A DNA stretch of 43,788 nucleotides, taken from the IMG/VR virus record IMGVR_UViG_3300045995_000051, positions 1-43,788 of that record. One strand, written 5' to 3'. A model generated the notes under the pieces. The model ran no database searches. It was not told where the DNA came from and saw nothing but the letters and a program-made list of their open reading frames with translations. Made by a program: the position numbers and the translations under genes. Position 1 is the stretch's first letter. The number at the start of each line of letters is the position of its first letter. This stretch comes from a virus. This document shows positions 2,089-7,167 of the stretch, piece by piece.

Positions 2089-2655
2089 TTAGCTTTCTGT
2101 TCGGACTGTGCTTGTGTCATTTTCAATTGTGTGGTGGATTGTGTGGTGGAGTTTTGGGGTGGCATTGTGTGCCTCCAATTGTTTAATCATCTCGCCAGAT
2201 TGTATTGTGACAAGAGACTGGGAACCTACTTGGACTACTTGATTATGTACATTAGTTTGGAATTTGTCAAGAATAATTGTTGGAATGTTAAGTTGTATGA
2301 TTGTTTGTTTCTGAGTTAGATCCTCTGTTTGTGTCATTCCTCGTCGTTTTGCTGCATTAAGAACTTGGAATGATTTAAGAATTTCCATTGGCCTTGTCAT
2401 GAAAGGCAAACAGTTTTCTAATTTTTTAATTAGTTTGTCTTCGATCTCATCAATTGACAAGTCTCGCTCATTGTTTTTAGATAGAGATTCGAACTTTCTC
2501 TCGATTACTTTCTGGGCAAAATCATCCTCTGCGAGGAGTTGGGATATCCGAGATGGATCAACTCCGAGAGCATTGGCAACTGCTGTTGGTGGAACACCCT
2601 GACCTAAGAGAGTTAGGGCGCGATCTTCGATTGTGGATGTGGTGGAGGTGGCCAT
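2089..2655 (-). CDS. terS: Probable terminase small subunit (DNA-binding)
   Basis: The 188-residue protein sits directly upstream of the large terminase. Near the N-terminus, around residues 12-40, is a helix-turn-helix-like stretch (VANALGVDPSRISQLL), typical of small terminases and related DNA-recognition proteins. The middle is charged and probably coiled; the C-terminus is His/Thr-rich. The frame stays open upstream to 2823, but the Met at 2655 (MATSTTS) was chosen because the extra 56 residues look like translated non-coding DNA. Small terminases recognise the packaging site on concatemeric DNA. The call rests mainly on position and the helix-turn-helix. It is the first gene of the late leftward unit. 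Confidence 0.68.
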   Translation of the reverse strand: MATSTTSTIEDRALTLLGQGVPPTAVANALGVDPSRISQLLAEDDFAQKVIERKFESLSKNNERDLSIDEIEDKLIKKLENCLPFMTRPMEILKSFQVLNAAKRRGMTQTEDLTQKQTIIQLNIPTIILDKFQTNVHNQVVQVGSQSLVTIQSGEMIKQLEAHNATPKLHHTIHHTIENDTSTVRTES

Positions 2656-2869
2656 ATAATTCGTGGATTGCTTTCTGAGATGAATAATATTAACATACGA
2701 ATAATATAGTTGTATATGGGGATCTAATTTTTGAAAAATTTTAGTAAAATCTAATTGACGTAATAGGAAGAACCACGCGCGAGAGTGCAAAAAGGCCCCA
2801 GCCCCTCCACCAAGATTCCACATATCATAGGATGAAATCTAATCTCATATGATGATATATAGATACATG

Positions 2870-3300
2870 CCACATTGTGAGATAGCATATTGTATTGTGA
2901 GATATAGGTTATGTAAGGTTGATGTAAGAGTGTATACAATGTTAGATGTACCTGCTAATGACTATGTAGTCAGTAATTTGTGCATTTTATATAGTGATAT
3001 ACAATCTCACATTATGAAAACCCCATGTCGGAACTAACTTATCCACACAATCCACAGCTTATGCACACAATGTGGATAACATTATTAAGAGTGTAACCAG
3101 ATGTTTTGAATTAATAATTACAGGCTAAGTTATCCACAAAATGCACCATAATTAGGATAAATGCACCATTTAAGGGATTTTGTGCATTATGTTGGTGCAT
3201 GTAAGAATAATGTAAGCAAGAATAACTTGTGAATAGATTGTGGATAACGCATGTAAGTTGTTGATTTATATAGGTTTTTTGTGTGGATAAGATTGCAGGT
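2870..3300. other. Putative replication origin: DnaA-box cluster with iterons
   Basis: The gap between the divergent blocks (2656-3367, 712 bp) carries no supported gene. It contains five perfect DnaA boxes TTATCCACA at 3039-3047 (+), 3071-3079 (-), 3130-3138 (+), 3239-3247 (-) and 3282-3290 (-), and one TTATGCACA at 3059-3067. Other short repeats lie around them: ATTGTGAGATA at 2874 and 2894, AAATGCACCAT at 3139 and 3159 (both pairs exactly 20 bp apart), and five ATGTAAG heptamers at 2911, 2922, 3199, 3210 and 3251. AT-rich tracts such as 3108-3120 could serve for unwinding. By analogy with oriC and DnaA-dependent plasmid origins, this is probably where host DnaA loads the replication machinery. 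That function is inferred. Confidence 0.72.
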
Positions 3301-3367
3301 GAAAAGTTGGCACACAATGTGCTTATATATAAGTACCCGATTTTGGGTTTACACCGGAGAATATAAA

Positions 3368-4009
3368 ATGTCAGTTATCAGCAACATACACACCGCAATC
3401 GTATATGAGGCCAAGGGTCAGAATAAGTCGGTTCCTTTTGATGGTCAACGTGGGGTAGTTACTATTGCCAAAGCAGATAAGAATGGTAATTATGGTGAAC
3501 ACTTGCAACAAACCATGTTTACTTCAATTCCACAATTATCTGATTCTGATATTAATTGGGATAATACAATTAAGAGTATCTGTGTTGATTATCTTAAAAC
3601 AGTTCAAAATAGTATTATTGCCGATAATCTTAAATCAGGTAAAAAGGATATTCGCACAGAGGATATATCTCAAGATGCTATTGTCGCTTATATTATGAGC
3701 GAATCTGTGGGCGATAAGTGGGATTCGAATCGCGTGGCACAATGGTTTAATGAGAATATCGCAATTACATTTACTGAGAAACTAATGGAAAAGGGATTAT
3801 CTGATACTGATATAGATAATCGTTTGGCAGTTACACAAAAGAGATTCGCTGAATCACTTTCAAGTAAGGCTAAAATCCCTAGTCAAGTAGCTGAGAAACT
3901 AACTCAAGTATTGAAACTGGCAGATTGTGAGAATGATATTGTTTATAAGAGATTTTATGCAAAATTAAATCCGCCTACAATTGCAGAGGCTTTGGATTTT
4001 GGATTCTAA
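3368..4009 (+). CDS. First early gene, unknown 213-residue protein
   Basis: I do not recognise the family. The start at 3368 is supported by GGAG eight bases upstream. The protein is soluble, with a beta-like N-terminal third and a helical, charged remainder, and it ends with ALDFGF; a Gly-Phe tail also ends the next three genes. Its helical half resembles the 217-residue protein at 8994-9647 in pattern (a Trp-rich helix, then a Lys/Ala/Leu helix pair and a short hydrophobic tail), so the two may be distant paralogues. It is the first gene rightward of the origin. A weak promoter candidate (TTGGCA, 15 bases, TATAAG at 3307-3333) overlaps the origin edge, just after the last DnaA box. It is probably expressed immediately after infection. 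Confidence 0.75.
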   Translation: MSVISNIHTAIVYEAKGQNKSVPFDGQRGVVTIAKADKNGNYGEHLQQTMFTSIPQLSDSDINWDNTIKSICVDYLKTVQNSIIADNLKSGKKDIRTEDISQDAIVAYIMSESVGDKWDSNRVAQWFNENIAITFTEKLMEKGLSDTDIDNRLAVTQKRFAESLSSKAKIPSQVAEKLTQVLKLADCENDIVYKRFYAKLNPPTIAEALDFGF

Positions 4010-4251: not shown

Positions 4252-4354
4252 TATTAGATTCTATTTTGTCACTTTGGCATTTTGGTTGGCATGCCAGAAT
4301 GCCAGAATGCCAGAATGCCAGAGCACCCTCCGGCACCCTCCTCCCTGCACCTGC

Positions 4355-4405: not shown

Positions 4406-4527
4406 TATGTTTTATTCATTATTATTTTGATACCCCTATATATGACCGTAAGATACACACTCTAGATTACACTCTCTCATATATGTTATATACTTATCTC
4501 TCACTCTATCATGCCTCTGGATGGGGC

Positions 4528-5815: not shown

Positions 5816-6112
5816 ATGTCCTCGCCTAATTTTAATCATCTTAAATTTAGGCCAGTCTTAAATCTGGCCCAAATTCGACACATCACTGACTTAGTTTCTT
5901 TAGATGATTCTTATATCTCCCAATCAATTAAGAAAGTTATGATTCCTCTAATTGCTAAGATCGAAGTCGGAGCAATATCACCTGCATATAAGTTATCAGA
6001 GATTCATGCTCAAAAGTTAGCTGATTCCTCCGAGCGTCAGAGATATGAAAATGATCTTATGTCTCCTGAAGAACAATCTGCATATGAATTGAAAATCTTA
6101 GGAGATATATAA
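5816..6112 (+). CDS. Unknown 98-residue protein
   Basis: Starts ten bases after the previous stop, with AAGG upstream of the ATG. The protein is predicted mostly helical, with a charged C-terminal half (SSERQRYENDLMSPEEQSAY). Its stop overlaps the next start (TAATG at 6110-6114), implying translational coupling to the 351-residue gene. The family was not recognised; coupling suggests a role alongside the downstream replication-associated pair. Confidence 0.7.
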   Translation: MSSPNFNHLKFRPVLNLAQIRHITDLVSLDDSYISQSIKKVMIPLIAKIEVGAISPAYKLSEIHAQKLADSSERQRYENDLMSPEEQSAYELKILGDI

Positions 6113-7167
6113 TGTCTAAAATCTTATGCGCTTATTCTGGAATCGAATTCCATTGTGAGCATTTACCTTTCGCCTTAAGTTCTAGAGAAGTTTCACATCC
6201 TCTTTTCCATGTATCTAAGAAGAAACTCTTAGGTCTTGCCGGACAATGGGCTAATGGTAAACTAACACCAACCGAAAGCTATCTTACCTATCTATCTCTC
6301 TTACATTCAACTGGCCTAATTGAATGGAGAACTCCAGCAAGATACCACGAGAAAACATCTTCAATCATTGCCAACAATATGGAACAATTGATTCACATTG
6401 TAGGTAAGATAGATGTTATCAAACATCCTAGATTTGTCTTACCTCATTTCGCAATAGGTCAAGACACAAACTCTCTCGACAACTCATATCATTGGATTCA
6501 GATCTGGAATCAAAACTACAATGATTGGGCAGACAATATAAAAGATCACTCAAATGATCAGGAACTCCAGAGGAGAGAATTAGGTTTGCAGAAACTTATT
6601 AAATCATCCCACAAGAATATAGAAGATTATCCTAAGATTCTAGCTAATTGGGCAAGAATCGCAGGAGATTTTCCAACATTCAATGTCACAATTCGCGGAG
6701 TTAAAACTTCCATAGATGATTATTGGGAATCAATCATAATCAAATGTGCAAAAGCAGAAACCATATTTCAAGTTCCTGAATCTGATCTTAAAGAACTTAT
6801 AGATCATTGTGAAGATAACATAGTAGGAGATGGTTCCATCTATGCAATTGCTCTTATGCGCTATCTTCGCAAAGGTGCAGAGATGCAAAAGAATTATCTA
6901 GGTCTAGGAGATATAGATCTCTCTAGAAATTCTCTAACTTCTTATCGTATTCTTAAACCAACTGAATCAGCAGAAGATGCTAACATCCAAAACATGATAG
7001 ATACTGCTCCTCTTGCCGAACCTAATAAGAAAGATTATCCTTCTCTTATAGATTACATTAAGGCAAAAGCAAGATGGAACATTGCATCTAATTACAAGAT
7101 CTTGCAAGATTCCGAAACACAATCACAACTGAAAGCATCAAATGGTAACGACGATTTCTCCCTCTAG
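6112..7167 (+). CDS. Unknown 351-residue protein coupled to the helicase gene
   Basis: Soluble and mixed alpha/beta, with an N-terminal signature MSKILCAYSGIEFHCEHL containing two cysteines and a C-terminal acidic tail NGNDDFSL. I do not recognise a named family. Its start overlaps the previous stop, and its last 26 bases overlap the start of the SF1 helicase gene in another frame. Such tight coupling suggests that it works with the helicase, for example as a loader or adaptor, but no loader motif can be pointed to. No membrane segment or signal peptide is visible. Confidence 0.75.
   Translation: MSKILCAYSGIEFHCEHLPFALSSREVSHPLFHVSKKKLLGLAGQWANGKLTPTESYLTYLSLLHSTGLIEWRTPARYHEKTSSIIANNMEQLIHIVGKIDVIKHPRFVLPHFAIGQDTNSLDNSYHWIQIWNQNYNDWADNIKDHSNDQELQRRELGLQKLIKSSHKNIEDYPKILANWARIAGDFPTFNVTIRGVKTSIDDYWESIIIKCAKAETIFQVPESDLKELIDHCEDNIVGDGSIYAIALMRYLRKGAEMQKNYLGLGDIDLSRNSLTSYRILKPTESAEDANIQNMIDTAPLAEPNKKDYPSLIDYIKAKARWNIASNYKILQDSETQSQLKASNGNDDFSL

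Follow-up and report, generated by a model that had tools for sequence, protein, structure and literature searches.

To our knowledge, the replication origin has not been mapped in most virulent phages. Among plasmids, RK2 oriV carries DnaA boxes along with iterons. Boxes accompanied by IHF sites are documented at the origins of pSC101, R6K and P1 oriR, and iteron plasmid origins bring together an initiator-site array, DnaA boxes, an IHF bend and A/T-rich DNA within a few hundred base pairs (PMC4980987). Phage P1 oriL likewise has two DnaA sites, an IHF site and a skew switch. However, oriL lies inside repL and depends on RepL, and its predicted DnaA and IHF sites could be mutated without effect, so that they were dispensable in the assay (PMC9948254). 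DnaA boxes and a single IHF site are also found at E. coli datA, which is a chromosomal regulatory site and not an origin. In the lytic Pseudomonas phage PseuGes_254, DnaA boxes near an A/T-rich region were predicted to form an ori by Ori-Finder, a prediction reported without IHF geometry or conservation (PMC11512268).

The locus described here lies in a complete, circularly assembled virus record (the window; 43,788 nucleotides, or 43.8 kb) that was analysed at its full length. The ends of the window overlap exactly by 127 bases, as do those of the relative G002, whereas the overlap is 123 bases in other contigs; it probably reflects the assembler k-mer and circular assembly. The large terminase subunit (TerL) is approximately 31% identical to that of Pseudomonas phage PaP2 (Fredfastierviridae), 34% to that of Aeromonas phage P5 and 30% to that of Polaromonas phage Tiera. 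The phage encodes a family-A DNA polymerase, a DUF3987/primase-helicase, a Dda-like helicase, Sak4, exonucleases, a portal and a major head protein, and no integrase, RNA polymerase, DnaA, Rep or phage initiator was recognised among those of its proteins that were scanned. Among isolated phages, blastn with the 2870–3300 region returned no match.

Sites in the divergent intergenic region

The region is a 712-bp non-coding gap between the divergent TerS gene (minus strand) and the first early gene (plus strand), and it contains a single GATC. Its features and borders are as follows.

2089..2655, minus strand: TerS, left border (weak PHROG terminase match, TerL adjacent)
2868..2904, unstranded: ATTGTGAGATA direct repeats, 20 bp apart (TTTCACA-type palindrome family, also in several relatives)
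3039..3047, plus strand: DnaA box TTATCCACA, exact match
3059..3067, plus strand: DnaA box variant TTATGCACA, sequence match
3071..3079, minus strand: DnaA box TTATCCACA, exact match (TGTGGATAACATTATTAAGAGTGTAAC identical in L005)
3080..3129, unstranded: A/T-rich stretch, candidate unwinding element, about 2 sd below the genome mean stability
3130..3138, plus strand: DnaA box TTATCCACA, exact match
3139..3199, unstranded: TGCACC/GGTGCA repeats, 20-bp spaced (3142, 3162, 3183–3199), iteron-like or NtrC-like
3239..3247, minus strand: DnaA box TTATCCACA, exact, 6 bp ahead of the TAAGT of the IHF element
3253..3280, plus strand: conserved IHF element GTAAGTTGTTGATTTATATAGGTTTTTT (minus-strand core 3254–3266 = AATCAACAACTTA, perfect WATCAANNNNTTR)
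3282..3290, minus strand: DnaA box TTATCCACA, exact, 43 bp from the 3239 box
3308..3323, plus strand: sigma-54-like -24/-12 element TGGCACACAATGTGCT, for gene 3368 (10 of 12 positions of TGGCAYG-N4-TTGCW)
3368..4009, plus strand: first early gene, 213 aa (homologs 42–65% in relatives; without known family or fold)

All five exact copies of TTATCCACA in the window fall inside 3039–3290 (252 bp), and there are none elsewhere in the genome; shuffled sequences gave an expectation of 0.49, and five or more copies were reached in 0 of 100 shuffles. The genome-wide count and the shuffles thus agree with the first-pass annotation, which had claimed five exact boxes and one TTATGCACA in this interval. 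The exact 20-bp direct repeats that it had described are also present, with ATTGTGAGATA at 2874 and 2894 and AAATGCACCAT at 3139 and 3159. Its five ATGTAAG heptamers (2911, 2922, 3199, 3210 and 3251) do occur, but four more lie outside the region (1773, 10078 and two on the minus strand), which leaves this signal weak. Overlooked at that stage were the IHF site, the iteron-like nature of the 20-bp repeats and the sigma-54-like promoter.

Six bases past the box at 3239–3247 comes TAAGTTGTTGATT, for which the opposite strand reads AATCAACAACTTA, an IHF consensus without mismatch; the consensus WATCAANNNNTTR has only six matches in the whole genome. As in iteron plasmid origins, the IHF site adjoins an array of initiator sites, here as a perfect and conserved consensus 6 bp from a box. 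Unlike in those origins, the slot beside IHF is filled by DnaA boxes, no Rep gene is recognised and the carrier is a phage with its own family-A polymerase. The A/T-rich stretch (about 3070–3130) is not the weakest in the genome, as several less stable spots lie at 2.7 and 4.0–4.6 kb. The TGCACC/GGTGCA repeats (two to three copies, spaced by 20 bp in the window, L057 and L002 and by 19 bp in L005) might act as iterons of the phage or as sites for an enhancer protein. Imperfect TTTCACA-N-TGTGAAA palindromes (2868–2882 and 3005–3019 in the window, 4422–4436 and 4582–4596 in L003, 4960–4974 in L002) recur in the same intergenic region of relatives, including relatives that have no boxes.

The region shares with E. 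coli oriC perfect boxes in both orientations, an IHF site between boxes and a non-coding location, but differs in the spacing and orientation of box and IHF site, in having only one GATC and in its opposite skew polarity. Rather than "oriC-like", the name given in the first-pass annotation, a more apt description is an iteron-plasmid-like origin whose initiator slot holds DnaA boxes. A cumulative GC-skew minimum, which that annotation had looked to as a sign of an origin, is not what lies near the region: the strong extremum at 4323, 1.07 kb away, is a maximum, opposite to bacterial oriC, and its range is reached in 0 of 1000 block shuffles. A skew maximum lies 0.8–1.9 kb downstream of the gene 3368 start in all five group A genomes (the window phage and its relatives), two of which lack boxes in this gap. 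The region therefore marks a switch of strand asymmetry that is independent of the boxes, and this is neutral evidence for an origin. In two further groups of phages (B and C, below), skew extrema show weak proximity only, with mixed signs, at 1.5–5.7 kb.

Recurrence of the module in relatives, unrelated phages and plasmids

The module of DnaA box and IHF site is conserved in relatives as far as 45–65% protein identity. A box followed after 6 bp by the IHF site is common to L005, L002, L057, L058 and the divergent G008, and the 43-bp step between the two boxes that flank IHF is found in the window, L005, L002 (where one is TTATTCACA) and L057. L005, L002, L057 and L058 share the gene order of the window. 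L005 has four exact boxes and the same box-IHF-box layout as the window. L002 has two exact boxes in addition to TTATTCACA, L057 five boxes and L058 two, while G008 has three exact TTATCCACA, two TTATGCACA and two IHF sites. In the same gap, the close relatives L003 and L004 have no boxes and retain the IHF site and promoter, and perfect boxes and a consensus IHF site are both missing from L007, L008 and L010. Because some close relatives lack perfect boxes, DnaA is not essential across group A. In trees of TerL and of a conserved early protein (encoded at 6112–7167), box-bearing lineages fall both inside and outside box-less ones, so that box loss or repeated gain has occurred.

A pattern drawn from the relatives, GTGGATAA-N5-GTAAGT-N2-TTGAT, was found in 58 viral contigs, in none when reversed as a control, and five times in 257 Gb of bacterial and archaeal genomes. 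A relaxed search allowing 0–30 bases between TGTGGATAA and TAAGTNNTTGATT returned at least 119 stretches, with spacings that, among the matches listed, were mainly 5–6 and formed a second cluster at 16–18. With the box reversed, there were at least 120 matches, and the spacings among those listed were 3 and 14–15; the reversed control of the relaxed search gave four. Preferred spacings are thus one helical turn apart in both orientations, as expected for two proteins touching on one face of the DNA. In total, at least 228 distinct viral stretches carry the module.

In groups A, B and C alike, the module lies at the border of replication or early genes and terminase genes. In the 60 loci of group B, TerL is unrelated (phrog_2) and is accompanied by a TOPRIM primase-helicase and a RuvC-like resolvase; most of these loci have between three and six exact boxes, arranged in a fixed layout ahead of TerS-TerL. 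A single box is usual in group C (48 loci), where it sits between variable short repeats, for example TAGGGTCA or TAGGTGCA. With near-duplicates removed, the 6-bp spacing occurs in 4 of 5 group A and 17 of 30 group B loci, and in group C it is the commonest true spacing (7 of 17), six further loci, in which the anchor fell inside the box, being left out of this count. The repeats that flank the module in group C (L107–L194, for example L169 and L133) vary by contig (GGGTCA, GGTGCA, GGGGCA) around a constant module, as would be seen if a binding protein specific to each phage were diversifying. Additionally, in isolated phages the IHF element is present and other short repeats fill the box slot, including GTGGCACA in Vibrio phage 1.049.O and CTCGTAACC in pVco-14, where it adjoins a primase gene.

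Plasmids carry related elements. The replication-initiation gene of N. gonorrhoeae pJD4 is preceded by four 22-bp iterons that directly adjoin GTAACTTATTGATTTTA; pLM159.1 has TGTGGATAA-N5-TAAGTTATTGAA 28 bp upstream of trfA; and a diverged copy of the element adjoins trfA in pF051. These are three of the eleven plasmid matches inspected; the other eight do not lie beside a rep gene, among them pMBUI6, in which the element is flanked by 22-bp repeats and has no annotated rep gene beside it. Sites found in plasmids with a short IHF-only query were mostly away from rep genes. Support from plasmids for an origin is therefore real but partial.

DnaA/IHF origins are already known from plasmids and P1. 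In the open-licence papers searched, no earlier description of this module was found, nor one of a helically phased unit across unrelated phages. Bacterial chromosomes almost never carry the module, whose resemblance is to elements found at some plasmid origins. It is possible, with the chances slightly against it, that at least three unrelated groups, comprising hundreds of mostly uncultured phages with their own replication genes, start replication from this shared, helically phased module. If so, it would represent a widespread phage route that ties lytic replication to the host initiator.

A predicted replication origin and competing roles

The recurrence of the layout in hundreds of viral contigs and beside some plasmid replication genes points to what is probably a replication origin run by host proteins. 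Judged from its sequence, the 2870–3300 region is a likely phage origin that host DnaA and IHF would recognise. Host DnaA would occupy the boxes that flank the IHF site, and IHF would bend the DNA, joining the DnaA-bound flanks in one complex at a fixed helical phase. The adjacent A/T-rich DNA would then open and a host or phage helicase would be loaded, after which the genome would be copied by the phage family-A polymerase and primase-helicase. Such an origin would work like that of an iteron plasmid, with DnaA boxes in the slot taken there by Rep iterons, perhaps assisted by a phage initiator that binds the 20-bp TGCACC repeats. As a reading, the putative use of host DnaA, proposed in the first-pass annotation, is well supported by deep conservation, by the fixed box/IHF geometry, by recurrence in unrelated phages and by similar elements at some plasmid origins. 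P1 oriL serves as a warning by analogy, as the DnaA and IHF sites here may also be dispensable.

The main rival is a pure promoter role, which we consider rather unlikely. Here, sigma-54 polymerase would bind at 3308–3323, an enhancer protein would occupy the TGCACC/GGTGCA repeats or TTTCACA palindromes, and IHF would loop the intervening DNA; the DnaA boxes would tune transcription of gene 3368, and replication would start elsewhere. A -24/-12 element (10 to 12 of 12 positions) is found at the same place in L002, L003, L004, L005, L008, L010, L011, L019, L057 and L058, which include relatives that lack boxes, and the NtrC-like half sites are spaced by 19–20 bp. In box-bearing loci, the element lies 42–54 bp past the IHF element. 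However, no such element follows the module in any of the 60 group B or 48 group C loci, so conservation of the DnaA-IHF unit does not hinge on the promoter. Moreover, the window holds nine such sigma-54-like matches against 2.4 expected, and we know of no role for DnaA as a sigma-54 activator. A promoter and an origin may also coexist: as read from the sequence, early transcription of group A phages may depend on host RpoN, and the group A IHF site may serve both functions.

A packaging signal (pac/cos), in which IHF and the repeats near TerS would guide terminase and the DnaA-like boxes would be terminase or accessory sites, is improbable. Lambda cosB provides a precedent for an IHF-guided terminase packaging site, and the module adjoins terminase genes in groups A, B and C and in L172 and L176. 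Nevertheless, the repeat is the exact DnaA consensus across unrelated terminase families, its orientation relative to TerS in groups A and B differs from that in group C, some isolates have the IHF element beside primase or in other gaps, and plasmids that have no terminase carry the element. Also disfavoured, and very improbable, is a DnaA sink, as suggested in the first-pass annotation, or a datA-like inactivator, which would starve or ADP-lock host DnaA and block host replication. Five high-affinity boxes and one IHF site would suit such a role, given that datA pairs boxes with one IHF site (PMC10950094). However, the E. coli datA layout is TTATCCACA, 56 bp and IHF, in contrast to the 5–6 bp and opposite box orientation seen here, and many phages retain the exact geometry with a single box, which would be useless for titration.

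With a replication origin as the favoured reading, a module that is defined by sequence and tested against controls would allow origins to be located in many phage genomes by sequence alone. It would also allow a test of whether lytic phages that encode a polymerase of their own continue to depend on host DnaA and IHF, for which the close relatives that lack boxes yet keep the IHF site and promoter offer a natural comparison.

Neighbouring proteins and other occurrences

For the protein of gene 3368, a single-sequence search found nothing and an alignment search reached 14 loci; its AlphaFold model is poor (pLDDT 73), and a PDB fold search with this model gave no match. The gene at 6112–7167, which precedes that of the Dda-like helicase, encodes a conserved early protein of 351 aa that belongs to no family, is 65–86% identical in close relatives and also has a poor AlphaFold model (pLDDT 62). 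This protein could be an initiator or helicase loader.

One of the rare bacterial matches (L087:2958–2983, a Chitinophagales MAG) lies just upstream of nrdB-like and nrdA-like ORFs, hinting at DnaA/IHF-type control of ribonucleotide reductase. In Escherichia phage FV3 (L200, 104328–106594), a 2.2-kb non-coding region contains a diverged extended IHF element and is a candidate origin of Vequintavirus.
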